A stretch of DNA of 64,000 nt from Shouchella patagoniensis (GTDB lineage: Bacteria; Bacillota; Bacilli; Bacillales; Bacillaceae_D): positions 2,354,565 through 2,418,564 of the forward strand of contig NZ_KV917377.1 in the NCBI RefSeq assembly GCF_002019705.1. Reading direction: 5' to 3'. The translations under genes and the position numbers were made by a program. Position 1 is the stretch's first letter; every line of letters starts with the position of its first letter. A model generated the notes under the pieces. The model saw only the letters and a program-made list of their open reading frames with translations, had not been told where the DNA came from and made no database searches. Below are positions 8,435 to 37,257 of this stretch, one piece after another.

Positions 8435-8597
8435 AATCTCCGCTTGTGTCTCGCGAATCTCCGACTTGTGCATTGAATTTCCGCTTTCCCAATTCAATCT
8501 CCGCTTTTTCTTCGCTAATCTCCACATCCGGCTCGCGAATCTCCGACTTGCGCATTGAATTTCGCTTTCTCAATTTAATCTCCGCGTTTCCAAGATA
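8435..8597. repeat. Phased short-repeat array A (8 units of 19-21 bp)
   Basis: Eight imperfect units, each opening with AATCTCC or a one-base variant, start at 8435, 8456, 8476, 8496, 8517, 8538, 8558 and 8577. The spacings are 21, 20, 20, 21, 21, 20 and 19. Units at 8456 and 8538 are near-identical (AATCTCCGACTTGTGCATTG versus the same with GCG), which shows an 82-bp higher-order period made of four units. The spacing is not a multiple of three, so the overlapping open frames are not a heptad-repeat protein. The same unit type occurs at 15418 and 36991. Confidence 0.85.
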
Positions 8598-8991
8598 AAA
8601 AGAGACAAAATCGCGAAACACCGAGACAGTGTAAGCTTTTTGCAACCGAAAAGAACCGTTCGCATCCATCGTAACTAAATTCTGTCATACGCCCATGAAC
8701 CGCTTGTTCAATGCGCACTTTTCCTCATCTGCACGATATATTTTCCGTCCGGCTTTGTCTTTCTCACTTCCACGCATGCCAAACACGATCGCTCCCTCTT
8801 TTTCTCCATATATGAGATATAGCCAAAACATGACGCCTGCTCGTCCGTTAACAACGCTAAATAGATACGTTATCAACCACATAGTAAATTCACAATGGCT
8901 TTACCCATCCTTCATACTCTCTTTATTTAAATAGCTTATTGTGAAAGTAAGCCTTACAGGTTCATACCAATGAGGGAGGAGCTTGTATCTC
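8598..8991. other. Intergenic stretch with no convincing gene
   Basis: Open frames exist on both strands (8695-8934 plus, 8685-8882 minus). Neither has a ribosome binding site or a family I recognise, and they overlap each other. The minus-strand frame (NGRAGVMFWLYLIYGEKE) is slightly more protein-like and could be a decayed gene. Confidence 0.3.
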
Positions 8992-9114
8992 ATGCTTACA
9001 TTTCTTGGTTTGATAAGCGCTTACTTGTTCGTGGTGACGATTCTCTTAAGAACCCCTGTTAAAAGCAAAAAAAGGCAATCGATTATGAAACAAAAAAGAA
9101 GGGCTTTCCAGTAA
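8992..9114 (+). CDS. Small single-pass membrane protein, 40 aa
   Basis: A short gene with a clear GAGGGAGGA ribosome binding site 11 bases before its ATG. The product has one hydrophobic helix (residues 2-21, LTFLGLISAYLFVVTILLR) followed by a strongly basic tail rich in Lys and Arg. It is predicted to sit in the membrane with the tail inside. No family is recognised. A terminator begins inside its last codons, which supports real transcription. Function unknown. Confidence 0.5.
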   Translation: MLTFLGLISAYLFVVTILLRTPVKSKKRQSIMKQKRRAFQ

Positions 9115-9136
9115 CGGAAAGCCTCTTCTTTTTTTA
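9097..9136 (+). terminator. Terminator after the 40-aa gene (shared with hmp)
   Basis: A GC-containing stem (AGAAGGGCTTTCC pairing with GGAAAGCCTCTTCT with one bulge) is followed by a run of T on the plus strand. It sits between two converging genes and may stop both. Confidence 0.75.
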
Positions 9137-9139
9137 TGC

Positions 9140-10309
9140 TTATACTGGAATAAGAGGTGTGAATACTTCAAAATGAACCTGTTTTTGGCTGACGCCTAAT
9201 TCTTGTAACTTCTTTTCCATTTGCTGAACAAATGATATCGGTCCACAAATATAAAACTGTTGTTCATTTTCGTTAATCAAATGATCAACTGTCATCTCGC
9301 TTGAATCAGAATCTCGATCATACACTTCGTAACGAAGAGATTGATAAGCAGAAGCGAGTTCTTCCATCTCGGACCGCAACGCATAAGAATTCCTATTTGC
9401 AGTGAAGTGGACAAATGTAACAGCGCGATTAGGCTGTGTCGCTAGAGCACTCTTCGCAATGCTTGTTAGTGGAGTAATACCAATCCCAGCACTCATTAGC
9501 ACAAGATCTCCCTCTCCATTTTCAGGAGTAAACTCTCCTGCTGGAGCCGTTAATTCAACCACAGCCCCTTCTGCTAATCCATGCATATACCACGACACCG
9601 TTCCTTGTACATCTTTTGTCTCTTCTCTCTTGATCGATAATCTGTAATAAGATTGATTTGGTTTATCCGACAAACTGTATTGACGCAAATGTGTATAGTG
9701 ATCCGATTGGCTGTACCCTTTCACAGTTACATATTGCCCTGGCTCAAACGTTGGTAGGCTCTTCCCGTCTTCAGGTACAAGGTAAAGCGAGACAACTTCT
9801 TTCGTTTCCTGTTCTTTCCGCTGCACAATAAAACGCCGAAACCCTTCCCAACTGCTTTCACTGGTATCTTTGTACAGCTCAGCCTCCACTGAGATAAACA
9901 CATCAGCTATAATATCGTAAGCGTTAGCCCATGCATCAAGAAGTTCATTTGTTGCTGAAGAGCCAAGAACTTTCTTAATTGCCTCAAGCAAATGCTCCCC
10001 TACAATCGGGTAATGTTCTGGCTTTACTTGAAGGCTTCGATGCTTATGAGCGATTTGTTTTACTACTGGCAACAACTCTTCTAAGTTTTCAATGTTCGCT
10101 GCAGCAGCATATAGTGTATTTGCTAAGGCTTGTTGTTGCTTGTCCTGCTTTTGGTTGGCGTGATTAAACAGGTTTAAAAGTTCCGGGTGTGCTTCAAACA
10201 AATCTGCATAAAATCGTTTTGTAATGGTCAAACCATGTTCTGCAAGGACTGGGACACTTGATTTGATAAGTTCGACCTGTTGTTCGCTAAGTTGTTTTGA
10301 CATCTCCAT
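9140..10309 (-). CDS. hmp: Flavohemoprotein Hmp (nitric oxide dioxygenase)
   Basis: A 389-residue cytosolic enzyme that converts nitric oxide and O2 to nitrate using NAD(P)H. The N-terminal globin domain (about residues 1-140) starts with LSEQQVELIKSSVPVLAEHG and contains the haem-side sequence QIAHKHRSLQVKPEHY with the proximal histidine. The FAD-binding domain carries LRQYSLSD (the RxYS motif). The NAD domain carries LMSAGIGITPL and FYICGPISF. Length is typical for the family (about 395-410). The start codon could be either of two ATGs two codons apart. It is divergent from nsrR, and an NsrR-type palindrome covers its promoter, so it is expected to be induced by nitrosative stress. Confidence 0.95.
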   Translation of the reverse strand: MEMSKQLSEQQVELIKSSVPVLAEHGLTITKRFYADLFEAHPELLNLFNHANQKQDKQQQALANTLYAAAANIENLEELLPVVKQIAHKHRSLQVKPEHYPIVGEHLLEAIKKVLGSSATNELLDAWANAYDIIADVFISVEAELYKDTSESSWEGFRRFIVQRKEQETKEVVSLYLVPEDGKSLPTFEPGQYVTVKGYSQSDHYTHLRQYSLSDKPNQSYYRLSIKREETKDVQGTVSWYMHGLAEGAVVELTAPAGEFTPENGEGDLVLMSAGIGITPLTSIAKSALATQPNRAVTFVHFTANRNSYALRSEMEELASAYQSLRYEVYDRDSDSSEMTVDHLINENEQQFYICGPISFVQQMEKKLQELGVSQKQVHFEVFTPLIPV

Positions 10310-10317
10310 CCACGCCC

Positions 10318-10346
10318 TTAAAGTTATATATGAAATACAACTTTAA
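10318..10346 (-). promoter_or_regulatory. NsrR-type operator in front of hmp
   Basis: A 29-bp interrupted palindrome with arms TTAAAGTT and AACTTTAA and AT-rich centre; 12 of 14 arm positions pair. It lies between the -10 of hmp and its start codon, the location and AT-rich dyad form expected for NsrR sites in Bacillus. Confidence 0.7.
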
Positions 10347-10373
10347 GTATAAACCGATTACAATTAATAACAA
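10346..10373 (-). promoter_or_regulatory. hmp promoter
   Basis: On the minus strand TTGTTA (10368-10373) and TATACT (10346-10351) are separated by 16 bases. The -10 abuts the NsrR-type palindrome, so bound NsrR would block transcription start. Confidence 0.6.
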
Positions 10374-10457
10374 GGTGCTCCACCTTTTCGTCATAAAATA
10401 GACCTAATTTAAGATAAAGATTACGATATACTAGAAAGAATAAAGAGGTGATTTGTT

Positions 10458-10892
10458 ATTCAACTAACGACGTATACTGATTATGCCTTAAGAGCATTGC
10501 TATATATCGGAAGCCAACCGGCTGGGAAACGTGCCCAAGTTAAAGAGATTGCTAGCGCATATCATATATCGCTTCATCATTTGCAAAAAATTGTCCATGA
10601 GCTTGGCAAATCTGGCCTTATTGAGACAGTAAGAGGAAAGAATGGCGGTATTATGCTTGCCAAGGAACCTCAAGAAATTGGAATCGGTATGCTCATTCGT
10701 ACTCTCGAAGGTATGGATTTGGTCGAATGTTTTAATGAAAACGGCCAATGCGCGATTCAATGTGCTTGTAAACTAAAATCGGTGCTACATGAAGCACAGC
10801 AAGCATTTCTTGCTGTACTTGATCGCTATACACTTGATGACCTCCTTCATAACAAGTCTGATCTGTACAGTCTATTTCAACAACAAACATGA
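10458..10892 (+). CDS. nsrR: Rrf2-family nitric-oxide-sensing repressor NsrR, probable ATT start
   Basis: A 144-residue winged-helix repressor that carries an iron-sulfur cluster. The N-terminal sequence QLTTYTDYALRALLYIG is the conserved Rrf2 start. The recognition region is ISLHHLQKIVHELGKSG, followed by the wing TVRGKNGGIMLA. The cluster ligands lie in CFNENGQCAIQCAC (Cys91, 98, 102, 104). The conserved N-terminus requires initiation at the ATT at 10458: a GAGGTGA ribosome binding site ends six bases before it, and an in-frame TGA overlaps that site, so no upstream start is possible. The first ordinary start (TTG, 10497) would remove 13 residues of the DNA-binding domain. It is divergent from hmp and probably represses it. 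Confidence 0.88.
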   Translation: MQLTTYTDYALRALLYIGSQPAGKRAQVKEIASAYHISLHHLQKIVHELGKSGLIETVRGKNGGIMLAKEPQEIGIGMLIRTLEGMDLVECFNENGQCAIQCACKLKSVLHEAQQAFLAVLDRYTLDDLLHNKSDLYSLFQQQT

Positions 10893-11268
10893 ATGCATGA
10901 ACCAACATGCCTCATGTTTGTTGGGTATTGAGGTAAAATACCAATGAATCATCTTTTGTTCCAACAATGTCCTTCAACTTAAAAGAAGGAGATTGTCAAT
11001 TTAAGCCGAAATATATAATCTTCAAATGCTGTTTAAACTTGCTATAATAGAAATGAGAGCGATTACACTAAAAAGCGTCATATTATCTAACAAGAAATCA
11101 GATCATTCTCTCTTTTCAATGACAAGAGATTCAGCTATTATTAACAGATATATCTGTTACATAACAACTAAGTTATTCGATAAAGAAAGGAGAGATGGAT
11201 AAAACGCTTTATACAATACAACATAAATGAACGCTTAGAAAATTCATCTATCATTAGGGGGATGTATA
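10893..11268. other. Long leader region before the amino-acid symporter gene
   Basis: Just after nsrR an 11-base inverted repeat (CAACAAACATG ... CATGTTTGTTG) lacks a T run but may end nsrR transcription. A promoter lies at 11021-11048, leaving a leader of about 220 bases that contains a perfect 16-bp palindrome (AACAGATATATCTGTT, 11143-11158). I searched by eye for glycine, T-box and SAM riboswitch cores and saw none. Confidence 0.5.
11021..11048 (+). promoter_or_regulatory. Promoter of the AGCS symporter gene
   Basis: TTCAAA (11021-11026) and a perfect TATAAT (11043-11048) with 16 bases between them. Confidence 0.5.
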
Positions 11269-12729
11269 GTGGAAGATCTTTTAAGAGCGATTAATGGCGT
11301 TTTATGGAGTTCGCCAGTCGTTTACACATTATTAGGAGTCGGGCTTTTATTTTCAATATTAACTCGATTCTCTCAAGTACGTCATATTAAAGATATGTTC
11401 GTCCTTATGTTTACCGGTAAGAAGTCCGATGCGGGTGTCTCCTCATTCCAAGCTTTATCCGTTGCACTTGCCGGTCGTGTCGGGACAGGAAATATCGCGG
11501 GCGTCGCTTCTGCTATTTTCTATGGTGGACCTGGCGCTGTATTCTGGATGTGGGCGATTGCTTTCTTAGGAGCCTCAAGCGCCTTTATTGAATCAACTTT
11601 AGCTCAAGTGTATAAAGACAAGCACGAGGGTCAGTATCGTGGGGGTCCCGCATTCTATATCGAAAAAGGAATGGGCACCAAATGGTTTGGTATTATTTTC
11701 GCCATAGCCGCCCTAATCGCTATGTCCATACTGATGCCTGGTGTTCAATCAAATGCCATCGCCGCCGCGGTAGATAATGCGTTTGCTGTTCCACCGTGGG
11801 TAACTGGGCTTGTTTTAGTCTTATTCTTAGGGCTTATTATTTTAGGTGGAATTAAATGGATTGCCACTACAGCCTCCTTTATTGTTCCATTTATGGCCAT
11901 CGCGTATATGCTGATGGCAGGAGTAATTATAGGGATGAATATTACTGCTGTTCCAGAAACCATCCAACTTATTGTTAGCAGTGCGTTTGGTATGGATTCC
12001 ATTTTCGGTGGACTTTTAGGTAGTGCAATTGCCTGGGGAGTTATGCGGGGGGTTTATTCGAACGAGGCTGGTCAAGGAACAGGTGCCCATGCGGCAGCCG
12101 CTGCTGAAGTATCTCACCCTGCGAAACAAGGACTTGTGCAATCCGCCTCTGTTTATATTGATACATTACTTATCTGTTCTGCGACAGCATTTATGATTTT
12201 GTTCACAGGCATGTATAACACAACAAGCGGTGGCGATAATGACCCATTAGTTGTGGAAGGCATTCCTGGTGCAACCGTTGGTCCAGAGTTTACACAAGGA
12301 GCCATCAACAGTGTGTTTCCTGCGTTTGGAACGGGATTTGTCGCAATCGCGCTTTTATTCTTTGCCTTCACTACCATTATGGCTTATTACTATATCGCTG
12401 AAACAAATATCGCCTACTTAATGCGAGGACGAAAAGCCGCAATTCCAATGTTCCTCATCAAAATTGTTTTGCTTGGAGCGACCTACTTTGGTGCAGTTAG
12501 AACAGCTGAGAATGCTTGGTTACTAGGTGACATCGGTCTTGGTCTAATGGTTTGGATTAACGTCATTGCTATTCTGATTCTCGCTAAGCCAGCCTTGCAA
12601 TGTTTAAAAGATTACGAGGAACAAAAGAAACAAGGTCTTGATCCTGTCTTTAACCCGAAAAAATTAGGCATTAAAAATGCCACGTTCTGGGAAACTTACG
12701 TTGACCCTGAAAAACGAAAAAGTAGTTAA
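11269..12729 (+). CDS. Sodium:alanine/glycine symporter (AGCS family)
   Basis: A 486-residue polytopic membrane protein with about eleven hydrophobic segments. Family landmarks are ALAGRVGTGNIAGVASAI near residue 67, the MRGVYSNEAGQGTGAHAAAA segment in the middle, and YYYIAETNIAYL toward the end. AGCS proteins import alanine, glycine or glutamine with sodium, which suits a sodium-using alkaliphile. Translation begins at GTG after AGGGGGA. It is a single-gene transcript with its own promoter and a terminator 15 bases after the stop codon. AlsT/GlnT-type relatives in Bacillus are the closest; substrate choice is not determined. Confidence 0.92.
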   Translation: MEDLLRAINGVLWSSPVVYTLLGVGLLFSILTRFSQVRHIKDMFVLMFTGKKSDAGVSSFQALSVALAGRVGTGNIAGVASAIFYGGPGAVFWMWAIAFLGASSAFIESTLAQVYKDKHEGQYRGGPAFYIEKGMGTKWFGIIFAIAALIAMSILMPGVQSNAIAAAVDNAFAVPPWVTGLVLVLFLGLIILGGIKWIATTASFIVPFMAIAYMLMAGVIIGMNITAVPETIQLIVSSAFGMDSIFGGLLGSAIAWGVMRGVYSNEAGQGTGAHAAAAAEVSHPAKQGLVQSASVYIDTLLICSATAFMILFTGMYNTTSGGDNDPLVVEGIPGATVGPEFTQGAINSVFPAFGTGFVAIALLFFAFTTIMAYYYIAETNIAYLMRGRKAAIPMFLIKIVLLGATYFGAVRTAENAWLLGDIGLGLMVWINVIAILILAKPALQCLKDYEEQKKQGLDPVFNPKKLGIKNATFWETYVDPEKRKSS

Positions 12730-12743
12730 TGAAATGACTGTAA

Positions 12744-12775
12744 CCTCATTGAAGATTGTCTTCAATGGGGTTTTC
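12744..12775 (+). terminator. Terminator of the AGCS gene
   Basis: A 12-base stem (CCTCATTGAAGA / TCTTCAATGGGG, one G-T pair) with a three-base loop followed by TTTT. Confidence 0.8.
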
Positions 12776-12837
12776 AGTGAATCATATAATCATATTGCCG
12801 TATTGAAGTTCTCTTAAAATAAAAAACAGTGCTTGTC

Positions 12838-13587
12838 CTATGCTTTCAACAGCCGCTCAAGCAATTGATTAAACGTATTTGCTTCCGCAAGAGGAAGTCC
12901 ATGACCGACATCCGATATAGCAAATCTTTCAAAATGAGGAAATCTTTCTTCTAGCACCTTCGCTGACCTTTTAATCGCTCGATTCTCCTTTGACCCGATT
13001 GTAATTAGCCCCTTACAAACGACCTCCTTCACCCTAGACGGCAGCTCATAAGAGATACTTTCTTGGACCGTTTCAGCAAGCAATGCTGCTGGCATTCGCT
13101 TTGCCTCTGCGAAATAGCATTCAAAATCATCCTCTGTAATATGGAGTGTTTTCGCTTGCAACTTAGAAAAGGATCGCCACTTAACCAACGGAGCGCTTGA
13201 ATAAAGAAGCGGCTTTATGAATGGTCGAACAATTGGCATGGGCTTTATAGAACCACTATTAAACATCACTCGATTTATCTGACTCCCATTTTGATGCAGC
13301 ATCTCTAGTGCGATCTGCGAACCTAAGGAAAAACCAACAACCGTCACTTCCTTCCCTTGAGCCTTCTCCTTTATAAGCGATAGCAAACGCTTTGCTGTCT
13401 CTACGATCGAGAAAGACTTATCACTGCTCTTCCCGTGCCCAGGTAAATCGGGCGCGAGGCAATGATACTCTTCTTCAAAATAAGCAAGCTGATTTTTCCA
13501 CATCCAACTGCTAACACCACCCCCATGTAAAAAGAGAATGAGCGGTCCGTCTGTATTTCCAGATTCATTGATATAAATGAGAATCAC
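12838..13587 (-). CDS. Alpha/beta-fold hydrolase
   Basis: A 249-residue hydrolase. The oxyanion segment is LFLHGGGVSSWMW, the nucleophile elbow is VVGFSLGS (serine), the acid follows the GLITIGSKE strand region, and the catalytic histidine is in SDVGHGLPL. This family includes esterases, lactonases and C-C hydrolases; no specific substrate can be assigned. The frame opens at a GTG with only a weak ribosome binding site. A better-placed AGGTGA lies five bases before an in-frame ATT three codons later, so the real start may be the ATT at 13578. It is a lone gene facing the AGCS terminator. Confidence 0.82.
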   Translation of the reverse strand: MILIYINESGNTDGPLILFLHGGGVSSWMWKNQLAYFEEEYHCLAPDLPGHGKSSDKSFSIVETAKRLLSLIKEKAQGKEVTVVGFSLGSQIALEMLHQNGSQINRVMFNSGSIKPMPIVRPFIKPLLYSSAPLVKWRSFSKLQAKTLHITEDDFECYFAEAKRMPAALLAETVQESISYELPSRVKEVVCKGLITIGSKENRAIKRSAKVLEERFPHFERFAISDVGHGLPLAEANTFNQLLERLLKA

Positions 13588-13616
13588 CTACTTTCATCAT
13601 GATTTAGACAATAAAC

Positions 13617-13776
13617 TTACATTTTTTCCTTCAAAAGAGAGTGTGCGAGGCCGTAAGCACTTATATGGGTGATATAAAGCCCCATCAACAAAAAGAATGC
13701 TAGTTTAGGGTCCCTCTACAAAAGTAACAATACCTCAACAGAGAATGAGCGTCACTAGAGACACATTCCAAGCCAT
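13617..13776 (-). pseudogene. Decayed small membrane protein following the XRE gene
   Basis: Directly after the XRE stop codon the minus strand encodes two hydrophobic pieces in different frames: MAWNVSLVTLILC near the start, and KLAFFLLMGLYITHISAYG through to a stop near 13617. XRE regulators of this size are often paired with a small multi-pass membrane protein. The pieces read as such a protein broken by frameshifts and stops. There is no close homologue I can name. Confidence 0.4.
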
Positions 13777-13778
13777 TG

Positions 13779-13979
13779 TTACCCAATATTTTCATCCCCT
13801 TCAAATAGAAAGATCTCTTCAATTTGACAATCTAACAATTGAGAAATTTTATGTGCCAGTACCAAGGAAGGTTTGTATTTTCCATTTTCTAAAGAAATAA
13901 TCGTTTGTCTTGAAACATGAAGCCGCTCCGACATTGTTTCCTGGGTTAAGCCGAACTCTTTTCGCTTTTCACGTATCAA
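13779..13979 (-). CDS. Small XRE/Cro-type helix-turn-helix regulator
   Basis: A 66-residue DNA-binding protein, almost entirely an HTH_3 domain: IREKRKEFGLTQETMSERL, then VSRQTIISLENGKYKPSL with the recognition helix. The C-terminal tail IEEIFLFE is typical of the YozG-like mini-regulators of Bacillus. The frame opens at a TTG. A GAGGTGA site lies seven bases before an in-frame ATA at 13986-13988, which would give the more usual opening MKSLIREKRKE, so initiation at ATA is possible. The partner membrane gene downstream is degraded. Confidence 0.82.
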   Translation of the reverse strand: MIREKRKEFGLTQETMSERLHVSRQTIISLENGKYKPSLVLAHKISQLLDCQIEEIFLFEGDENIG

Positions 13980-14207
13980 CGATTTTATCGAGTCACCTCT
14001 AATGTAAAGTTAACTGTACATAAAGTATACTTTACTTAGTGAATTTAGCAAAGTTTAAATATTCTTTTATTAATGGGCTATGATAATAATCAATTGTCCT
14101 ATCACGTGGGAAAAAGCAATTTCAATATCGTTCGTACACAAACTACGTTGACAAAACGATTCATTTTCCGATATAGTTGTTACACGAACTAATTAGGAGG
14201 ACTTCAC

Positions 14208-14645
14208 TTGCTTCATTCTCTTGATGAATCCATTGGTTTTATGACCGCCCAAACACACCGTGCGATGATCCGTCTTCTAACCGCTCATTTGAAAACGTAT
14301 CAGATCACGCCAGAGCAATGGACCGTCTTAAAACGACTCAACAAACACGGAGATTTAACGCAAAAAGAATTGTCTCAAGTTGCGGAAAAAGACAAAGCAA
14401 CATTAACACGGATTCTTGACATTCTCGGTCGTAAAAAGCTTATTGAGCGTAAACAGAACAATCAAGACAAGCGGTCATTTTTAGTTGGACTAACTCAAAC
14501 AGGTGAACAGCTGTATGAAACTGTGAAACCTACAATAGAGAAGTTATTTAGCGAAACGATTGCCGATGGCATTTCCGAAGAAGAGCTTGAGCTGTTTTAT
14601 GATGTTCTTACACGCCTTAGAGAGAATAGTTCTCGTTCTTATTAA
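14208..14645 (+). CDS. MarR-family transcriptional regulator
   Basis: A 145-residue dimeric winged-helix repressor. The central domain reads ITPEQWTVLKRLNKHGDLTQKELS, then KDKATLTRILDILGRKKLIER and the wing KQNNQDKRSFLVGLT, followed by the dimerisation helix. It begins at TTG with AGGAGG seven bases upstream. It overlaps the operon of the membrane protein encoded 17 bases downstream, which is its likely target. Effector unknown; MarR proteins commonly respond to phenolics or oxidants. Confidence 0.9.
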   Translation: MLHSLDESIGFMTAQTHRAMIRLLTAHLKTYQITPEQWTVLKRLNKHGDLTQKELSQVAEKDKATLTRILDILGRKKLIERKQNNQDKRSFLVGLTQTGEQLYETVKPTIEKLFSETIADGISEEELELFYDVLTRLRENSSRSY

Positions 14646-14662: not shown

Positions 14663-15307
14663 TTGAAGATTACACAACGTTATTGTTTTTTTGCCGTCGG
14701 CCTTTTTTTTATGGGCTTTGGCATCTCACTCACTGCAAAATCGGAATTAGGTAATTCTCCGATATCGAGTGTTCCTTATGTCCTGAGTTTAGGTTTTCCA
14801 CTGACTCTTGGAACCTTTACGATTCTTTTATTATCGGTTTTCATTCTCATTCAAGTACTCTTATTAGGAAAAAATTTTCCACCAATCCAGTTCATTCAAT
14901 TAGCACTTGCTCCTTTACTAGGCATATGCATTGACTTTGGCATGGTGCTTGCTTCATTCATCAAACCAAGTACGCTTCTTGAACAACTGACGCTTCTTTT
15001 ACTTGGTTGTCTTTTTGTTGCGATTGGTGTTTATATTCAAGTGGAAGCAAAAACAGTAATGAATGCTGGGGAAGCCATTGTAAAAGTATTATCTGAAATA
15101 ACGAAGATTGAATTTGGCACGATGAAAATGATCTTTGATTGGTCACTCGTTGCTATTGGTGTCTTGTTTTCTTTTCTTTTATTTGGGGAACTACGTGGAA
15201 TTGGGATTGGGACAATTATTTCCGCTTTCCTCGTTGGATTTTTAATTAAAGGCATTCGCAAACTAATTGGTACAAGACGTTTCCATACAAAAAAGGAGGA
15301 TGCATAG
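14663..15307 (+). CDS. YczE/YyaS-type integral membrane protein
   Basis: A 214-residue protein with about five hydrophobic segments. The opening FFAVGLFFMGFGISLTAKSE, the ELGNSPISSVPYVLS loop and the MNAGEAIVKVLSEITK loop are hallmarks of the YczE/YitT-like family (DUF6198). YczE in Bacillus subtilis influences production of a lipopeptide, but the molecular role of the family is unclear. It starts at TTG with a GAAGGAG site and is co-transcribed with the marR gene. Its last codons lie inside a 37-bp sequence that is duplicated 261 bp downstream. Confidence 0.82.
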   Translation: MKITQRYCFFAVGLFFMGFGISLTAKSELGNSPISSVPYVLSLGFPLTLGTFTILLLSVFILIQVLLLGKNFPPIQFIQLALAPLLGICIDFGMVLASFIKPSTLLEQLTLLLLGCLFVAIGVYIQVEAKTVMNAGEAIVKVLSEITKIEFGTMKMIFDWSLVAIGVLFSFLLFGELRGIGIGTIISAFLVGFLIKGIRKLIGTRRFHTKKEDA

Positions 15308-15318
15308 GCATTCTCCTT
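15282..15318. repeat. 37-bp direct repeat, copy 1 (contains terminator)
   Basis: It begins TCCATACAAAAAAGGAGG and ends GCATTCTCCTT, and holds the end of the yczE gene plus a hairpin (AAAAGGAG.ATGC / GCAT.CTCCTTTT). Copy 2 at 15543-15579 matches at 35 of 37 positions. Together they bracket repeat array B. Confidence 0.85.
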
Positions 15319-15417: not shown

Positions 15418-15540
15418 AATCTCCGCTTTCCCCAGCCAGTCTCCACACTTTTCTCTTGCATCTCCACTTTCAGCTCGTAATTCTCCGCATCACGCACTGA
15501 ATCTCCCCTTTCCTTAGCCAATCTCCACATTTTATGTTCC
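15418..15540. repeat. Phased short-repeat array B (6 units of 20-21 bp)
   Basis: Units start at 15418, 15438, 15459, 15480, 15500 and 15520, spaced 20, 21, 21, 20 and 20, each with (A/C)NTCTCC at the start. Units at 15418 and 15500 are close relatives (CTTTCCCCAGCC versus CTTTCCTTAGCC), again an 82-bp period of four units, as in array A. A following unit boundary would fall at 15541, exactly where the second copy of the flanking 37-bp repeat begins. The array lies between the converging yczE and tetR genes. Confidence 0.85.
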
Positions 15541-15542: not shown

Positions 15543-15579
15543 TCCATACAAAAAAGGAGAATACATAGGCATTCTCCTT
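15543..15579. repeat. 37-bp direct repeat, copy 2 (terminator of tetR)
   Basis: This is the second copy of the sequence at 15282-15318, with two G-to-A differences. Its inverted repeat AAGGAGAAT / ATTCTCCTT with a T run on the minus strand should end the tetR transcript, and the tetR stop codon lies in it. Confidence 0.85.
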
Positions 15580-16159
15580 ACGCTTTTATTCCTCGCCAAT
15601 AGACAGCCCAGACCGTTTCTAAGTGTCGTTCAACTTCTTCCAACGTATAAAACGTTGTTTCATTTGCCAGACCATCAATCAAATAAAAATACGTATGCGC
15701 GATATTTGCTGCATCAAGCTCATTCGTTATTTCATTCGCCTCTTGTCCGCGAGCAATCACCTCTTCAACAATTGCCCTTGCTTGCTTATCGCTTTCTTCG
15801 GCACTTGTAGCAAGCTGCTCTTCAAGACCTTGGGGAGGATACTGAATAAACCGATTATAAAACTGAAGACTTGTATCATTTTGGGCGAGGTCTTGTAAGT
15901 GTATTTTCATTGAGTTGAATAGCAACGTCTCAATATTGTTTGACTCAGACTCGAGTGAAGTTTTTACAAACTCCACATATTCATCAGCCATTTTTTTATT
16001 AATATCTATAAACAATGCTTCTTTGCTTTTATAGTGAGCATACAACGAAGGTTTCTTAATGCCAACCTTCTCCGCGATTTTTGCCATCGATGTTCCTTCA
16101 TAGCCATTCACTGCAAAAAGTTCCATACTCTCTGCTAAAATTTTCTCTTTTGTGTGCAT
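15578..16159 (-). CDS. TetR/AcrR-family transcriptional repressor
   Basis: A 193-residue repressor. The N-terminal HTH domain reads KILAESMELFAVNGYEGTS, then MAKIAEKVGIKKPSLYAHYK, the classic TetR helix-turn-helix. The C-terminal ligand/dimer domain is variable. It is divergent from an MFS exporter gene, with two inverted repeats in the 208-bp gap, so it very likely represses both. The start ATG has AAAGGAG six bases upstream; a GTG one codon earlier is too close to it. Confidence 0.92.
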   Translation of the reverse strand: MHTKEKILAESMELFAVNGYEGTSMAKIAEKVGIKKPSLYAHYKSKEALFIDINKKMADEYVEFVKTSLESESNNIETLLFNSMKIHLQDLAQNDTSLQFYNRFIQYPPQGLEEQLATSAEESDKQARAIVEEVIARGQEANEITNELDAANIAHTYFYLIDGLANETTFYTLEEVERHLETVWAVYWRGIKA

Positions 16160-16202
16160 CACGTACTCCTTTACAACAAAATCAATCTACGTTATAATCC
16201 TC

Positions 16203-31170: not shown

Positions 31171-31206
31171 AAAAGAGTGTTGCGCTTGCTGCAACACTCT
31201 TTTCTT
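31171..31206. terminator. Bidirectional terminator between MFS and AraC genes
   Basis: A 13-base stem (AAAAGAGTGTTGC / GCAACACTCTTTT) with T on both strands between convergent genes. Confidence 0.85.
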
Positions 31207-31218
31207 TTTACGGACAAC

Positions 31219-32040
31219 CTACTTCTTTTTTACAGGTATCCAAATTTCTGTTTTTTCATCCGTTCCTTTAACCATTTCAGGAGCTTCTGCTAGTTCATAA
31301 CCAGAGATAGGGAACCACTCGGTATACACTCGCTCCCATGTAGTTAATAATGCATCTGGCATCTCTCCTATCGCTTGAAATACTGCCCACGTTTGGGGAG
31401 AGATCGCAAGTTGTTCTAGTTCTTTTGGACATGGTTTGCTAGTCGCTGTTGCAATATAGTAATCGACATCCCCATTCTCTTTTGTTAATGAAACATGTAA
31501 GATGCCCGAAAACGAAGTATTATCATAGGGCTTAACAGCCTCTTCAATTTCCTCAAGATGTGCCCACATTGCTGGGTTGAATTCGGATTCACCTGTAGAC
31601 ACGGTTTCTTTTTTTCCCACAACAGTAAATGCTTCTTTCTCCACAAACCTATAGTTCATTTCGACATCTCCCTTAATCGCCATTTGAAAGGTCATCATCG
31701 GATACGCTTTTAATGGAACGTCCGTATTTTTTACTGAACTAGGAGTGACTTCATGCAGCATTTGAAACGCTCTTGAAAAGGAATCAGGTGATTTATAACC
31801 ATACTTCATAGCCACATCAATGACTCTTACATTCCTTTCTTTTAACTCAAAAGCGGCTAAGGTCAAACGTCTTCTGCGAATATATTCCGTTAATGAGATC
31901 CCAGCTATGAATGAAAACATACGTCTAAAATGATGCTCTGAAAAGTATGCAATCCTTGCAACCTCTGCATAATCAATCTCTTCATCCAAATTGTTTTCAA
32001 TATAGCTTACTGCGGCATTCATATTTTTAAGCATATCCAT
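31219..32040 (-). CDS. AraC-type regulator with GyrI-like effector domain
   Basis: A 273-residue protein. The N-terminal AraC DNA-binding domain holds two helix-turn-helix units (YAEVARIAYFSEHHFRRMFS and VIDVAMKYGYKSPDSFSRAF). The C-terminal 150 residues are a GyrI-like small-molecule-binding domain, ending TEIWIPVKK. Such proteins (Rob- or YdeE-like) sense hydrophobic compounds or stress. GAGGTTA precedes the ATG. It is a single gene; its target is not evident. Confidence 0.88.
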   Translation of the reverse strand: MDMLKNMNAAVSYIENNLDEEIDYAEVARIAYFSEHHFRRMFSFIAGISLTEYIRRRRLTLAAFELKERNVRVIDVAMKYGYKSPDSFSRAFQMLHEVTPSSVKNTDVPLKAYPMMTFQMAIKGDVEMNYRFVEKEAFTVVGKKETVSTGESEFNPAMWAHLEEIEEAVKPYDNTSFSGILHVSLTKENGDVDYYIATATSKPCPKELEQLAISPQTWAVFQAIGEMPDALLTTWERVYTEWFPISGYELAEAPEMVKGTDEKTEIWIPVKKK

Positions 32041-32242
32041 TTAAATAACCTCCCTTCGCTTTTAAGAATAACAAGATAGCTAATGAACCATCCGATTCAC
32101 ATTGTTCAGATTTGTAGGGTTGTATACATATACGTAATTAATACTATCATAAACATATTATTCCTTAGTTATTTAGCAGGTTGTTTAAACAATGTTAAAA
32201 AGGAACCGCAAGTTACGTACATTGTTATTTCCACATGAACAC

Positions 32243-32458
32243 TTACAATGGCGCAATACGCAATCGAGAAGCAACTCGTTGAAGCTCCTCTTTACTTGCT
32301 GTTAAATCATTGTTCAGCCTGTTGTTTAGGAACAACGAGTGTATGTCCTTAACGAATAGGACGAATATCTAAAAAGGCAACACACCACTCGTCTTCATAA
32401 ACCATTTGACTCTCCATTTTTTCGCTGCAATTGCACAAAATAGACAGCTTTTATCCAC
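32243..32458 (-). pseudogene. HIT-family (histidine triad) protein pseudogene
   Basis: The minus strand keeps a fine ribosome binding site (GGGAGGT) and a GTG start followed by VDKSCLFCAIA, the CxxC zinc element of HIT hydrolases. After a one-base loss in an A6 run the frame continues as MESQMVYEDEWCVAFLDIRP, then a TAA stop where relatives have lysine, then GHTLVVPKQQAEQ. A further frame change leads to DLTASKEELQRVASRLRIA and a stop. The HxHxH triad is missing. This is a decayed HIT gene with two frameshifts and at least one nonsense mutation. Confidence 0.75.
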
Positions 32459-32634
32459 GTAAATCTACCTCCCTTATTGTTTGAAAGACGGACTTAAGAC
32501 GTTTCCAACGTCAAACAATCTATCATTGAACTAATACGCTAGAAACAATAAAATCCCTGGCAAAGGAAACGATTCCACACAAAAGTAAAAGGTGATACGA
32601 TAGAAAGCAAGAGTCATTCAGGAGGTTCTACACC

Positions 32635-32897
32635 ATGTTATTTTTCTAAAAAAGTCCGAAGCCATTATCCGTTATCTGTTTTTATTCCTTTTTTTCGTCT
32701 TCTTAATTGGTTCTATCACCTTGTCAAAAGAGAACATAACGGATCAAATCATTTTATATGGTATTGCTGGTATTTCTGCGATTGGCATTGTTACAGGTAT
32801 CAACCATATTCAAATGGAGCGCATAAGCGCCATATTTGAAATTGTGTTTTGTAGTCTTGCACTTATCCTTATCTTTTTTTGTTATTTAATCAATTGA
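32635..32897 (+). pseudogene. Frameshifted small membrane protein gene
   Basis: A GGAGG site lies nine bases before an ATG, but the frame ends after four codons (ATG TTA TTT TTC TAA). In the -1 frame a complete reading of about 84 codons begins at once (KKSEAIIRYLFLFLFFVFLI) and continues with two more hydrophobic stretches to a TGA 15 bases before the ASCH gene. One extra T in the T5 run would restore an 87-residue three-helix membrane protein. It is a one-base frameshift, a sequence error, or a slippage-controlled gene. No family recognised. Confidence 0.65.
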
Positions 32898-32912
32898 TCG
32901 GAGGATTTACAT

Positions 32913-33392
32913 ATGGAGCAATGTGATACTGCTGAAACGCTCTGGCAAGTGTACTTACAGAAAAATCCCCACGCCAAGTCAAAGGGCTACAGCGCTTTTG
33001 CTTTTGGTGACGGATCAAAAGCAATGGCTGATGAGCTTAGTGCCCTTGTAGTTCAAGGAGAAAAAACAGGGACTTCCTCTGCTTTTGCTTTGTACGGAGA
33101 GGAACCACTTCCAAAAGTAGGCGATTTTAGCGTGGTTTTAGATGGCGACGGCGATGCTGTTGCGATCATTGAATGCCTAGCAGTTGACCTTATCCCTTAT
33201 CATGAAGTGACGGAAGCACACGCCTTATCAGAAGGGGAGGGTGACCGCACGCTTGATTACTGGAAAAGCGTACACGAACCTTTTTTTACGAGCGAATTAG
33301 AAAACGTGGGGCACGTCTTTTCAACCGATATGATCGTCGTATTTGAACGTTTTAACGTTGTTCATTTGCCCCAACAGAAGAAGAACAGCTAG
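32913..33392 (+). CDS. ASCH-domain protein
   Basis: A 159-residue protein with an ASCH (PUA-like) fold, recognised by VVQGEKTGTSSAF (the GxKxxT element) and the strand PKVGDFSVVLDGDGDAVAIIE. ASCH proteins bind nucleic acid or modified nucleosides. The later helix contains LDYWKSVHEPFF, a feature of the YqfB/YtfA-like set. It starts after CGGAGG and is followed 11 bases later by a GNAT gene, so the two are co-transcribed, possibly together with the frameshifted gene in front. Confidence 0.8.
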   Translation: MEQCDTAETLWQVYLQKNPHAKSKGYSAFAFGDGSKAMADELSALVVQGEKTGTSSAFALYGEEPLPKVGDFSVVLDGDGDAVAIIECLAVDLIPYHEVTEAHALSEGEGDRTLDYWKSVHEPFFTSELENVGHVFSTDMIVVFERFNVVHLPQQKKNS

Positions 33393-33403
33393 GAGGCTTT
33401 TCG

Positions 33404-33847
33404 GTGAAATTTACACTTGTGCAAAGCACGATTGAGGATAAACCATATATCTCTGACTTACGAATGACTGCATTAGCAGATGACTTTAATCGCCATCATT
33501 TACCTGATGAACAAGTCTTATCACGCTTTAATGAAAACTTCAATCCCGACACAACCTACTTGATTAAAATCCACGAGGAAACGATTGGTTGTATCGGCAT
33601 CCGCCCTGTAGGCGATGAAGTGATGCTGAAAAACTTTTACCTTGATCCCGCCTACCAAGGCAAAGGGATTGGTCGTGCTGTGTTTCAATCTGTTCTCGAT
33701 CAACACCAAGACAAACGAGTCATTACATTAATGATATTCAAAGGAAGCCGAGCAAAAAAACGCTATGAAACATTTGGTTTCTCTGTGGTTGATGCAAATG
33801 AACGGGTAGAAACAATGTGTTTATATAACAAAGTGGGCCTCAAATAA
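33404..33847 (+). CDS. GNAT-family N-acetyltransferase
   Basis: A 147-residue acetyltransferase. The acetyl-CoA binding motif lies in FYLDPAYQGKGIGRAVFQS (Q/RxxGxG), with the preceding beta strand IGCIGIRPVGDEVMLKN. Substrate unknown; small single-domain GNATs modify amines or peptides. It begins at GTG after AGGAGG. A strong terminator follows. Confidence 0.88.
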   Translation: MKFTLVQSTIEDKPYISDLRMTALADDFNRHHLPDEQVLSRFNENFNPDTTYLIKIHEETIGCIGIRPVGDEVMLKNFYLDPAYQGKGIGRAVFQSVLDQHQDKRVITLMIFKGSRAKKRYETFGFSVVDANERVETMCLYNKVGLK

Positions 33848-33868
33848 ATGGGGCCCACTTCTTTTTAT
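33831..33868 (+). terminator. Terminator after the GNAT gene
   Basis: A nine-base stem (AAGTGGGCC / GGCCCACTT) with a twelve-base loop spans the stop codon and is followed by CTTTTTATTTT. Confidence 0.85.
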
Positions 33869-33875
33869 TTTAGCG

Positions 33876-34670
33876 TTAAAAAAATTCATTTAATCCGTTT
33901 GCAAAATAATGATAGTCTTCCTTGCTAATTGGTTCTGCCCCATACCCGTTGAAGAATAGTGTATAGTCAGTATTTTTTTGAAAAAGGCTCGGTTTTGGTC
34001 GCACTGCTAATGCAACATCATAGCGTGGATCACCGTAAGCTCCCCCGGCCCAGTCAATCACGCCAGAGATCTTCCGATTATGAACCAGCACATTATCAAT
34101 AGTAAAATCACCATGAATCAGTGTTTGTTTAACCGGTTGAGGACGGTTTTCCACTATTTCTTTCAACAGTTCACTCGTAACATCAACTTGATAATGGGTT
34201 AATTGATACGAAGCTTTTTTTAGCTGATTGTCTAGCCAAGATCCTTGTTGCTTCCATTCGTTTGGACAAGGTATCGAGTGGACTCTCGCTAGAATCTCTC
34301 CAAATTGGACGATTAACTCTTCCCGTCTCTTTTGATTTGATTCATTTGCAATTGCAAACCTCATCGTTTCACCTTGAAGACACTCCATTAACGCCCATGA
34401 ATGCCCCTTTTCATCTTCTTTAACATATACCTCTACATCCGGAACCGGCAATGTGGTTTTAATGGATAAAAGTGATAAAATATCGACTTCTTGTTCAAGC
34501 CAGGAACAATACAATGGTTCTCTTGTTCGTTTTAAAGCAAAATAATGGCCTTTTGCTTCTATTATCCCAACGTCAGAAGTATACCCTTGCCTCGGAAAAC
34601 GAATTCTATCTATTCTCCCAACAAAATGCTTTATGTCGTTCGGAATCTCGTTTATAGCGAACGGTCTCAT
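33876..34670 (-). CDS. Aminoglycoside phosphotransferase (APH)-fold kinase
   Basis: A 264-residue kinase-like protein. The catalytic loop is TLIHGDFTIDNVLV with the catalytic aspartate and asparagine, and the metal-binding aspartate is in GVIDWAGGAYGD. The N-lobe has RQGYTSDVGIIEAKGHYFALK with the ATP-binding lysine. Family members phosphorylate antibiotics, choline, homoserine or sugars; none can be chosen from sequence. AGGTGA stands six bases before the ATG used. Confidence 0.85.
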   Translation of the reverse strand: MRPFAINEIPNDIKHFVGRIDRIRFPRQGYTSDVGIIEAKGHYFALKRTREPLYCSWLEQEVDILSLLSIKTTLPVPDVEVYVKEDEKGHSWALMECLQGETMRFAIANESNQKRREELIVQFGEILARVHSIPCPNEWKQQGSWLDNQLKKASYQLTHYQVDVTSELLKEIVENRPQPVKQTLIHGDFTIDNVLVHNRKISGVIDWAGGAYGDPRYDVALAVRPKPSLFQKNTDYTLFFNGYGAEPISKEDYHYFANGLNEFF

Positions 34671-34721
34671 CAGCATTCACCTGCATTTACTTAGACATAA
34701 AAAAAAGCCCCTTTATAAAGG

Positions 34722-34735
34722 AACGAACGTTCGTT
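34722..34735. promoter_or_regulatory. 14-bp perfect palindrome between divergent genes
   Basis: AACGAACGTTCGTT lies about 50 bases upstream of the APH-type start. A second palindrome, CCTGGCCAGG, lies at 34848-34857 just before the ribosome binding site of the MFS gene. Either could be an operator; no regulator is encoded next to them. Confidence 0.4.
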
Positions 34736-34882
34736 TTTTAGTGCAGCGAAAGTGAGCAGAGGCTACATTGATTTTCATATTATTAGTATAATACAGAGAT
34801 TATTATAAGTCTATATTTTTTTCAGTTTATTTTGTATTCTTATGAAACCTGGCCAGGATAACAGAATGAGGAGATAAAAACT

Positions 34883-36121
34883 GTGTGGAAACAGTTAGAT
34901 CAAAACTTAAAAGTTCGTTTGTTAGGCGAAGGTTTATTTAATCTTTGTTATTGGATGTACTTTCCTTTTATCGCCCTGTATTTCAGTGCTACACTCGGGA
35001 CCAGTCTCGCTGGAGGGTTACTAATGTTGCCTCCCTTTATAAGCCTACTTGGAAATTTAGTAAGTGGTGGCTTAGCTGATTTCTATGGCAGAAGACCGAT
35101 TTTGTTGCTTGGCGCCGCCTTGCAAACCGTCATGTTTGCCATATTTGCTTGTTCATTCTCTCCGTGGGTTGATTATATCGCTTTCATTGGAGTTGGTCTT
35201 GGCGGAGCATTGTATCGTGCTCCTAGTTTGGCAATGGTCGCTGACCTGGTGACCGAGCAAGATCGTCGTAGTGTCTTTGCTTTATTTGCGACAACAAATA
35301 ATATAGGCTCAGTCATGGGTCCAGCCCTTGGTGCCATTTTCTTTTTCCACTACCGCCAACCATTGTTATTCATAACTGCTTGCGTCATGCTTATTTATAC
35401 GATTAGCATTTTTATTTTCATTAAGGAAAGCAAGCCATTACAGCCACATTCAACTAGTTGGAGCTTACTAAAAAATGCATTCGCCATTCTGAACAGCTAT
35501 AAACACATTTTTTCCGATTCGATCTTTTTGCGCTTCATTCTTGGTGGTGTTTTTTCGATTATGACCCTTATGCAACTTGATCTTTATTTAGCCTATTATG
35601 TAGTTCATCATGTACCAGCCCAACCGATTCACCCCTTTCAAAGTTGGCCATCATACCTCTTATCAAGTGAACAAATTTTCGGATATATGCTCGGACTGAA
35701 TGGACTCATGTTCGTCGCATTCATTTCACCACTCACTAAGCTAACGACACTATGGAAAGAACGTGACATCTTTATTGTCTCGTGTTTATTATCAGGCGTA
35801 GCGCTGTTTGCAATAGGCATGACAACATCTTTTTCTTTACTGCTATTAATGACAGCTGTTTTCACCTTAGGGGAAATCTTACGCGCCCCAGCCTCTGAAA
35901 GTTTTGTTAGTGCCTATGCACCAGCACATGCGAGAGCTACGTATATCAGTGCTTCGAATCTTCAATATACCGTCGGTCGTACACTCGCGCCAATATCAAT
36001 ACTCTTATCTGGAAAGCTTGGCACATCAACGATATTTTATTTATTGCTTGGCTTTTCTCTAATTGGCGCCTTGCTTTATGTAAGTATGTTTCGCGGTTAC
36101 GAATCAAAAGAGAGAATATAA
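34883..36121 (+). CDS. MFS multidrug-type transporter (YqjV-like)
   Basis: A 412-residue twelve-helix transporter. Motif A after helix 2 reads GGLADFYGRRPILLLG, the standard antiporter loop. Helix-linking segments (GVGLGGALYRAPSLAMVADLV) resemble MdtH/YqjV proteins. It begins at GTG nine bases after GAGGAG. Substrate unknown. Confidence 0.88.
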   Translation: MWKQLDQNLKVRLLGEGLFNLCYWMYFPFIALYFSATLGTSLAGGLLMLPPFISLLGNLVSGGLADFYGRRPILLLGAALQTVMFAIFACSFSPWVDYIAFIGVGLGGALYRAPSLAMVADLVTEQDRRSVFALFATTNNIGSVMGPALGAIFFFHYRQPLLFITACVMLIYTISIFIFIKESKPLQPHSTSWSLLKNAFAILNSYKHIFSDSIFLRFILGGVFSIMTLMQLDLYLAYYVVHHVPAQPIHPFQSWPSYLLSSEQIFGYMLGLNGLMFVAFISPLTKLTTLWKERDIFIVSCLLSGVALFAIGMTTSFSLLLLMTAVFTLGEILRAPASESFVSAYAPAHARATYISASNLQYTVGRTLAPISILLSGKLGTSTIFYLLLGFSLIGALLYVSMFRGYESKERI

Positions 36122-36128
36122 ATGAAAA

Positions 36129-36153
36129 ACTGCCCAATTCTTTATTGGGCAGT
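36129..36153. terminator. Hairpin after the MFS gene
   Basis: A ten-base stem (ACTGCCCAAT / ATTGGGCAGT) with a five-base loop lies eight bases after the stop codon. The T run is on the minus strand side only. Confidence 0.6.
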
Positions 36154-36259
36154 AACATACTTATTTGTTTTCTATTATCTCCATCTTCATTAGTTGCGGT
36201 TGAATATTTACTAAAAAATCATTTCTAATCGTTATAGAACTGTCAACAAGGAGGTTGCA

Positions 36260-36343
36260 ATGCGACTACACACATACAATCTTTTCGTAACTAAACGTCT
36301 ATTTAAACAAGACAAAACAAGCCCACCTCCGTTAGATTGGTAA
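36260..36343 (+). CDS. Possible 27-residue peptide gene
   Basis: AAGGAGG stands five bases before an ATG that opens a 27-codon frame (MRLHTYNLFVTKRLFK, then QDKTSPPPLDW). The ribosome binding site is among the best in the window. The product is basic and amphipathic in its first half, with a proline-rich end. It runs into the converging gene after six bases. Not recognised; it may be a small functional peptide or a chance frame. Confidence 0.4.
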   Translation: MRLHTYNLFVTKRLFKQDKTSPPPLDW

Positions 36344-36348
36344 GCTTG

Positions 36349-36810
36349 TTACATTTCTTCTCCTTCATTTTCTTCGATAAACTCTTGAAACCACTCTACT
36401 TCTAATGGACCATTAAGCAATTCAAACCCACTAGTTCCAATAATCATCACTCCTGTCTCTCCTAAAAAAACAATTGAAGGTTTGCTTTTCTGGTGGCTAA
36501 TGTAAAGTTCAAGAGGCTTTTCTTCTATGAACTGTTGGTGATACACATCTGTATCAACTCGTTTTACTTGATATTCCCCTAGAAATGAAACGACTTCTTC
36601 TACTAACGCCGGCTCCGTTGTATACCATTCATAGCCATTTTCTTTTTCCACATTATCACGCTCGACAGTGATGCCTAAAAGAAGTAGGTCTTCTTTGTTA
36701 AATGGAATAAGTTCAGCAAGATTTCGCTGCCGATTGTCATTTCCAACTTTAAGCATAATGGCAATTGCAATTCCCACACACACCGCTACAAGTACAATTC
36801 GTCTTTTCAT
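36349..36810 (-). CDS. Membrane-anchored protein of unknown function
   Basis: A 153-residue protein with an N-terminal hydrophobic anchor (IVLVAVCVGIAIAIMLKVG) and no cysteine at a lipobox position. The remainder, likely outside the cell, is acidic with mixed alpha/beta content and ends in a run of Glu. There is no family I recognise. The start is the ATG after GGCGGAAGG; a GTG one codon before is also possible. It is monocistronic. Confidence 0.65.
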   Translation of the reverse strand: MKRRIVLVAVCVGIAIAIMLKVGNDNRQRNLAELIPFNKEDLLLLGITVERDNVEKENGYEWYTTEPALVEEVVSFLGEYQVKRVDTDVYHQQFIEEKPLELYISHQKSKPSIVFLGETGVMIIGTSGFELLNGPLEVEWFQEFIEENEGEEM

Positions 36811-36887
36811 CACCTTCCGCCTTTGCCCGTTTTAAACATCTATATTCAACTTATCGGCAACTTACGCCTTCAGGTCTAGCAAACATA

Positions 36888-36913
36888 CAAAAAAAACCGT
36901 CTATTAAGACGGT
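36888..36913 (-). terminator. Minus-strand terminator beyond array C
   Basis: A seven-base stem (ACCGTCT / AGACGGT) with loop ATTA; the preceding A run is a T run on the minus strand. If it ends the GH2 gene transcript, that transcript would carry the whole repeat array in its 3' end. Confidence 0.7.
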
Positions 36914-36990
36914 CAGAAAGTGTTTATTCAGGTGAAATGAAAACGGTCGTTAATCTAAGAGCGCGTGACAAGGAACGATTAAGTTCTATG

Positions 36991-37257
36991 AATCTCAGAC
37001 TCCAGCATCCTATCTCCGCCTCTACAATCGAATCTACGTTCTTTCTTCTTAAATCTCCGCACTCATGCGCCGAATCTCCACTTCGATCTCACGAATCTCC
37101 GACTTCCGCATCCTTTCTCCACCTCTACAATCGAATCTCCACTCTTTCTTCTTAAATCTCCACCTTCATCCCTGAAATCTCCTCATTCAGCTCTTAAATT
37201 TTCTACTTCAGCATTAAATCTCCACATCAACAATCATATCTCCGCGTCCAACGTCTT
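36991..37257. repeat. Phased short-repeat array C (13 units of 20-21 bp)
   Basis: Units begin at 36991, 37011, 37031, 37052, 37073, 37094, 37114, 37134, 37155, 37176, 37197, 37217 and 37237. The spacings are 20, 20, 21, 21, 21 repeated twice, then 20, 20. Matching units recur every five (36991, 37094 and 37197 all have the ACTTC/ACTCC...GCAT type; 37011, 37114 and 37217 the ...ACAATC type), so a 103-bp block is present 2.5 times. The unit start AATCTCC is shared with arrays A and B. Not a CRISPR: no constant repeat and no unique spacers of equal length. Confidence 0.88.

Follow-up and report, generated by a model that had tools for sequence, protein, structure and literature searches.

Intergenic arrays of 20/21-bp units in Shouchella patagoniensis and other Bacillales, possible helically phased DNA elements

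A 64,000-nucleotide stretch of the Shouchella patagoniensis genome (contig NZ_KV917377.1, positions 2,354,565 to 2,418,564; here the window) contains three intergenic arrays of tandem units that begin AATCTCC and recur every 20 or 21 base pairs (bp). The arrays are real, well above chance and commoner than first noted. ATCTCC-N13..16-ATCTCC occurs nine times in the window against 0.05 expected, a count reached in 0 of 100 shuffles, and 42 times in the 4.65-Mb genome against three for the reversed pattern. The arrays are best explained as DNA elements, neither genes nor RNAs. The reading we consider best, to which the sequence gives about an even chance, is that they may be DNA phased on one face of the helix for protein binding or wrapping. 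The geometry of the units, the constancy of their core, a one-turn rhythm in base composition in most families, the avoidance of divergent promoters and an unfixed strand all point to DNA that is read as DNA. We did not find a description of these arrays among the matches listed in the open-licence literature.

Array A: 8435..8597, plus strand; 8 units in 82-bp blocks, with convergent genes on either side.
Array B: 15418..15540, plus strand; 6 units, with convergent genes on either side.
Array C: 36991..37257, plus strand; 13 units in 103-bp blocks, 3' of a minus-strand gene.

The positions, the AATCTCC units, the plus strand and the situation after genes are as described in an earlier note on this DNA. 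The steps from unit to unit are 21,20,20,21,21,20,19 bp in A, 20,21,21,20,20 bp in B and 20,20,21,21,21,20,20,21,21,21,20,20 bp in C. Blocks of 82 bp had been claimed for both A and B; they are clear in A and amount to about 1.5 copies in B. The 103-bp block of C is recovered by Tandem Repeats Finder at 1.9-2.5 copies. A regular alternation of 20 and 21 bp is not borne out, as successive steps are 21-21 in 85 cases, 20-20 in 53 and mixed in 101. The single orientation that was reported is true of the window arrays and does not extend to the genome, in which five AATCTCC loci are on the plus strand and four on the minus.

After grouping of the matches the genome holds nine AATCTCC loci, and one extra match lies within an array with a different core. 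A sequence-only profile made from 28 three-unit pieces recovers the same nine loci and one marginal place (E 0.006). With the best 150 candidates taken per genome, the profile matches at least 41 times here and at least 74 times in the sister species Bacillus sp. JCM 19041 (G036), and in no other of the 13 species of the genus. The earlier note had proposed looking for further copies in this genome and its relatives, and in addition to the nine loci here 26 array stretches were chained in G036, a number that includes fragments of a single array at contig ends. The draft of Bacillus sp. JCM 19041 breaks within arrays, and several contigs end in them (e.g., contig 77 at its end, contig 42 at its start). 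In a search of the family, three of 41 genomes match; the third, G016, is known from its letters alone.

The different loci share unit types, and so do the two species. Five of the nine loci (A, B, C, L241 and L245) are also occupied by an array at the orthologous place in the sister species, with units that have mostly diverged or been replaced. Both genes flanking array A are 70-87% identical in G036, the ortholog of array B is split across two contig ends, and the orthology of L241 rests on one visible flank. The G036 array L257 and L240 here provide one filled/empty pair, the counterpart site here being empty. A hairpin on both sides of L257 and the position of the L240 array inside a possible terminator stem are anecdotal. 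Six of the nine are found on the same side of dnaA, 82-679 kb away, as noted post hoc; the dnaA-dnaN-recF-remB-gyrB cluster is at ~2,740,852 of the contig (G000:C1). A possible likeness of ATCTCCACA to the DnaA box was set aside because other genera have unrelated cores.

Spacing, core and one-turn rhythm

The unit is composed of AATCTCC, a purine at position 8, usually a C next, and a variable remainder of 11-12 bases in which positions 10-12 weakly favour ATT. Arrays span 4-30 units and lie between gene ends. The step chain permitted 19-22 bp and penalised 19 and 22. Of the 269 steps read in 27 arrays of both species, 150 are 21 bp, 117 are 20, two are 19 and none is 22; weaker G036 arrays, read later, have two 22-bp steps and one 19-bp step. 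Spacing is therefore by whole helical turns, at 20/21 bp in 267 of 269 steps and at 51-53 bp in G152, a genome described below.

A reach of 20/21 bp and an asymmetric core with a purine are reminiscent of MmeI-type (Type IIL) enzymes. The idea that the unit is the footprint of such an enzyme was rejected because PF20473 does not track ATCTCC-R arrays; the domain is absent from this genome (G000), from G036 and from nine genomes of the genus g67. Four of 30 genomes match it, G077 strongly and G030, G085 and G122 weakly, and G077, G085 and G122 bear arrays with other cores. CRISPR (clustered regularly interspaced short palindromic repeats) arrays have repeats above ~20 bp and spacers above ~25 bp. 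Here the whole unit is 20/21 bp and a CRISPR array was rejected as well, although no search for cas genes was made.

Position 8 is a purine in 93% of distinct units although it is often substituted, in 10 of 55 block pairs and in 13 of 32 ortholog pairs. The core is more constrained than the spacer in three comparisons, with caveats of ascertainment and independence that are taken up below. Duplicated blocks of 4, 7, 11 or 14 units occur in seven arrays (7 of 35 passed the block filter), and block copies show differences at 18 of 385 positions in the seven-base core against 87 of 688 after position 8 (P 1.4e-5). Between orthologous arrays, for which only unit pairs of equal length and at most 35% difference were taken, the core differs at 24 of 224 positions and the remainder at 112 of 405 (P 3e-7). 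In G085, 13 of 14 array rows (all except L407) have a core identity of 0.85-0.95; outside the core the identity is 0.33-0.51, compared with 0.26-0.33 for random letters.

If the DNA is wrapped or bent, A+T and G+C should alternate once per helical turn; in units of 20.4 bp this is the second harmonic, in units of 52 bp the fifth. In a first run the second harmonic was the largest in 20 of 29 arrays. Grouped by core, 18 of 22 families have their largest harmonic, out of six, at 10.2-10.5 bp, and permutation of the unit columns gives P < 0.05 in 10 of the 22 families (combined 8.5e-9). The fifth harmonic (~10.4 bp) is the largest in six of ten 52-bp arrays, with a combined P of 6e-7. Ordinary intergenic DNA from the same genomes has a small peak there (0.020-0.024 over ~0.017). 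Repetition itself raises power in arrays, and therefore it is the permutation test, not the contrast with intergenic DNA, that carries the claim of a rhythm.

Arrays with other cores across Bacillales

The three-unit pattern matches in 24 of 397 genomes of the order, some with single matches or matches that are coding in appearance, against six for the reversed pattern. The genus g67 has 21-bp arrays of TATCTCC-R-GTTG, in which position 8 is a purine in nearly every unit; seven of nine sampled genomes match, and loci were read in six.

A core-agnostic detector, which looks for chains of at least four 8-mers matching at 7 of 8 bases with a step of p or p+1, was run on ~2 Mb: 464 kb of this genome, with the window among them, and 400 kb from each of G152 (g67), G328, G085 and G029. 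G152, G328 and G085 were picked for having an ATCTCC array, and most arrays found there have other cores. Shuffled copies of eight loci from each of three genomes gave no arrays. Among 40 non-coding, non-CRISPR-like arrays, 36 have steps of two turns (20-21 bp) or five turns (51-53 bp), seven of them known beforehand from pattern searches. By genome, the non-coding arrays at these periods are six of seven here, at 20.3-21 bp (array C forms two rows and array B is below the detector), three of three in G328 and 13 of 14 in G085, at 20-21 bp; of 16 in G152, five are at 20.4-21.2 bp and nine at 51.3-53 bp. The 400 kb of the congener G029 has no 20/21-bp arrays. Its loci L358 and L359 contain eight arrays with a period of 65-67 bp and GTCGCAC cores; these look like a CRISPR and were left out of the 40.

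Many unrelated cores are found among the 20-21 and 51-53 bp arrays. In 26 Bacillales loci of 10 kb, some overlapping G152 and other surveyed stretches, 13 of 13 further non-coding arrays step at 20.5-21.2 or 51.9-52.2 bp. Outside Bacillales, at loci selected by ATCTCC at 20-21 bp, 11 non-coding arrays bear ATCTCC and ten others are off these periods, bar one of 53.7 bp. In at least 120 ATCTCC-chosen loci of viral contigs most 21-bp arrays look coding, and the four non-coding ones carry ATCTCC, the selecting letters.

Some single arrays are of interest in their own right. Two other non-coding 20/21-bp arrays of this genome have pyrimidine-rich cores and no 10-bp rhythm, at L328:12180-12631 (core TTCCTGAGCT, 22 units) and L330:15421-15766 (core TGAGCTCCTC, 17 units). 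The 400 kb of G152 contain ten arrays of 51-53 bp (L339, L343, L344, L345, L347, L350, L354, L355, L357), with twice as many such rows as two-turn rows, and several have inverted motif pairs, e.g., TTGACAG / CTGTCAA. A SAM (S-adenosylmethionine) riboswitch at L345:18117-18231, minus strand, lies near a 52-bp array. At L340:833-1250 three 21-bp arrays adjoin in one intergenic region, with the similar, non-identical cores CAACYGGAGATA, CAACGGGGATTA and CAACTGGTATTA.

The genus of G085 carries its arrays as a dispersed element, made of a fixed leader and usually six phased units. GCTCA-N14,15-CGCTCA-N14,15-CGCTCA occurs in 16 of its 18 species, up to 204 times, against 0-22 for the reversed control, and 12 of the 18 species have at least three times their own control. 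The leader, ACGGTACGTGTTC-N-ACACG, is present in 16 of 18 species, 1 to 44 times, the control being 0 throughout. We examined 30 of 95 leaders from three genomes (L418-L447). A chain found by the CGCTCA core is carried by 23 of the 30 (L433 has CACGCA cores), and 18 of these 23 have exactly six units; the steps are 72 of 20 bp, 36 of 21 and one of 19. By eye, six of the other seven elements have phased cores of other sequence next to this leader and L420 has none that is clear. The 10-bp harmonic is the largest in 24 of the 30. The genes around the elements are codirectional in 21 cases, convergent in seven, divergent in one and undetermined in one, and the elements among codirectional genes run from array to leader in 16 cases and the opposite way in five. 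An alignment of 19 elements shows a conserved palindrome in the leader.

The arrays might grow by insertion, with short fragments added beside a core that is duplicated each time, as in a tiny CRISPR-like or target-duplication process. The constant core with a near-random spacer, the one-sided leader in the genus of G085 and the element-specific cores would all suit such a process. We nonetheless regard it as most unlikely. Blocks of several units are copied together, the usual number is six and not open-ended, and in CACGC-type elements the core beside the leader differs, by eye, from the repeated one.

The main rival, and a serious one, is a dispersed and mostly neutral satellite that arises and spreads by slippage, unequal exchange and copying between loci, gathers behind genes since insertions there do little harm, and owes its helical period to manufacture, not use. 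We consider it possible, if somewhat doubtful. The higher-order blocks are as in satellites, unit types are shared between loci and between both species, the distribution is patchy (2 of 13 species), sister species differ at one filled/empty site, and the leader element in the genus of G085 resembles a multi-copy dispersed repeat. However, decay should not spare cores while spacers diverge, nor should it give unrelated cores one 10-bp rhythm or a usual six units. Eukaryotic higher-order repeats of the alpha-satellite kind are alike in that monomer types recur in blocks, and differ in scale and setting, since the monomer here is two helical turns and not nucleosome-sized.

Gene context and strand

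Both neighbouring genes are visible for 24 AATCTCC arrays. Convergent genes enclose 13 of these (expected share 0.18 by intergenic length, P 6.5e-5), codirectional genes ten and divergent genes one (a shortage, P 0.018); this count leaves out 11 arrays at contig or locus edges and takes orthologous pairs twice. The ten codirectional arrays are split evenly, with five along the genes and five against them.

The earlier note had also offered an RNA reading, in which the minus strand, when transcribed, is a ladder of GGAGAUU resembling ribosome-binding sequence. Such a function at the RNA level, as a ladder or as a chain of hairpins, is highly improbable. Array C may be transcribed from the glycoside hydrolase gene on its right up to a terminator-like hairpin, and in 10 AATCTCC arrays five of 20 strand tests fold better than spacer-shuffled controls (z < -2), the lowest being the minus strands of L246 (-3.4) and array B (-2.9). 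The other 15 tests range from -1.8 to +1.6. No Rfam match was found within an array among the loci searched, and the 19 aligned elements of the genus of G085 have no conserved pairing in the array part. Cores lacking GGAG occur in other genera, and the period fits B-DNA rather than any need of an RNA. Because the arrays avoid divergent promoters and their strand is unfixed, a GGAGAUU ladder is unlikely, and both it and the hairpins were rejected.

The surroundings of the window arrays are as follows.

7636..8301, plus strand: gene left of A, with a DUF4937 domain.
8320..8350, minus strand: terminator-like hairpin left of A, found with our own script.
9140..10309, minus strand: gene right of A, with globin and FAD/NAD reductase domains, flavohemoglobin-like.
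14663..15307, plus strand: gene left of B, DUF6198.
15282..15318, no strand assigned: left copy of a 37-nt direct repeat flanking B, a terminator-like hairpin.
15543..15579, no strand assigned: right copy of this repeat, 95% identical to the left.
15578..16162, minus strand: gene right of B, a TetR_N regulator.
36349..36813, minus strand: gene left of C, with no Pfam match at 1e-5.
36887..36914, minus strand: terminator-like hairpin left of C, found with our own script.
37291..39045, minus strand: gene right of C, glycoside hydrolase family 2.

The repeat at array B is the sole direct repeat among 47 flank pairs to exceed the shuffled range. Apart from it, neither direct nor inverted repeats are in excess at the flanks of the 47 arrays, and they were rejected as marks of insertion; for inverted repeats, 5 of 47 flank pairs score at least 10 against 4.7 in shuffled pairs. 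The window also contains a 138-bp tandem repeat (55145-55496, 2.6 copies, 78% matches), which sits within the open reading frame 54608-55537 (309 aa) and is probably a coding repeat.

Possible function

On the preferred reading of phased DNA, the 20/21-bp unit would be two helical turns, made up of ~9 bp of constant core (AATCTCC-purine-C here) and 11-12 bp that are free to vary. Repetition of the unit would align the cores along one face of the helix, together with A+T-rich patches at intervals of ~10.3 bp. A protein could bind cooperatively along that face, or the DNA could wrap round a protein, and a bent particle of DNA and protein would result, located in the silent DNA past the ends of genes. 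Six to seven units, or 120-145 bp, would make about one particle of a wrapping protein. What benefit the arrays give is a guess; the particle could hold supercoils or separate adjacent transcription units. Same-face binding, which the earlier note had already suggested, is favoured by the two- and five-turn steps, the 10.3-bp rhythm in unrelated cores and the slower divergence of cores than spacers; the binding protein is putative. We can guess at candidates: a RemA/LytTR-like ring (the domain of RemA is related to LytTR), LrpC or gyrase.

It has been proposed that DNA whose A+T-rich repeats have a 10-bp period wraps round RemA rings, at promoter-upstream sites of modest sequence conservation; the same paper names LrpC (PMC8481266). 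The regions bound by the RemA octamer ring in Bacillus subtilis consist of repeated A+T-rich sites at a 10-bp period, such as the arrays may have. They differ in lying upstream of promoters, whereas the arrays sit at gene ends and keep to a strict core. The direct repeats bound by LytTR domains are 9-10 bp long and 11-12 bp apart, for a period of 21 bp (PMC2766830). The core size and the ~21-bp spacing of such operators (AgrA, SilA) match the arrays, but the operators are pairs upstream of promoters and the arrays are 4-30 units between gene ends.

Targets of transcription termination or docking sites of gyrase, analogous to bacterial interspersed mosaic elements (BIMEs) and requiring no dedicated sequence-specific protein, are an improbable alternative. 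The arrays are at gene ends, and gyrase of Escherichia coli prefers phased 10-bp G/C variation (PMC6379681). Gyrase docking, however, needs no sequence-specific core conserved across loci and two species. Rho sites were rejected, since the strand that is transcribed is not always the C-rich one, array C and L240 being two exceptions. BIMEs, repetitive extragenic palindromic (REP) sequences and the strong gyrase sites of E. coli are likewise multi-copy and intergenic. The arrays differ from them in having tandem two-turn units with a constant core, and REP palindromes were not encountered: the 19 related elements have no conserved hairpin or pairing in the array part, and folding of the 10 AATCTCC arrays is mixed.

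Other dispersed repeats are less close. BrickBuilt of Porphyromonas gingivalis is a miniature inverted-repeat transposable element with a 23-bp minisatellite of spacer-free units and inverted-repeat ends (PMC4596501). It too is a dispersed intergenic element with a leader and tandem units; here the units are 20/21 bp with variable halves, and flanking inverted repeats do not go beyond chance. The TAACTGA direct repeats of Beggiatoaceae are short, intergenic and in many sets, mostly just upstream of start codons (PMC4679880). They are similar in the first respects and differ as heptamers before start codons rather than arrays at gene ends.

Several points weigh against phased DNA as the explanation. 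Block copies within one array are not independent pairs. The ortholog test leans towards the core because units are recognised by their core, so that ascertainment favours it; the block-copy test is less exposed to this. The AATCTCC family of the window is a borderline case in the rhythm test, where its 12 arrays have a median P of 0.065, and the test is failed by both other 20-bp families of this genome (P 0.45 and 0.79). The grouping into families is our own, in two of the 22 rows all arrays of 19-22 bp from a single 10-kb locus are taken together, and the P values come from our own scripts and a modest sample. A RemA-like gene (PF04025) is present in 20 of 20 genomes checked, with and without arrays, and LytTR (PF04397) in 18 of 20; thus neither separates array-bearing from array-free genomes. 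Lastly, AATCTCC arrays are dispensable, because just 2 of 13 species of the genus carry them.

Phased DNA may also be part of something larger. The arrays might form a chromatin-like layer in many Bacillales, in which lineage-specific satellites with their own cores and two- or five-turn phasing position DNA-wrapping particles of fixed size at gene ends, as a bacterial counterpart of nucleosome-positioning and higher-order centromeric satellites. We think this unlikely, though not negligibly so. One geometry recurring with unrelated letters would mean that the geometry of the helix is part of what selection sees, and neglected minisatellites would become testable chromatin elements. Even if the arrays are neutral, the strong preference of tandem repeats for two or five turns is an unexplained fact about how repeats form. 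If they are docking or wrapping sites, they would show where and how a bacterium organises supercoils between its genes, and would serve as bait for finding the protein.

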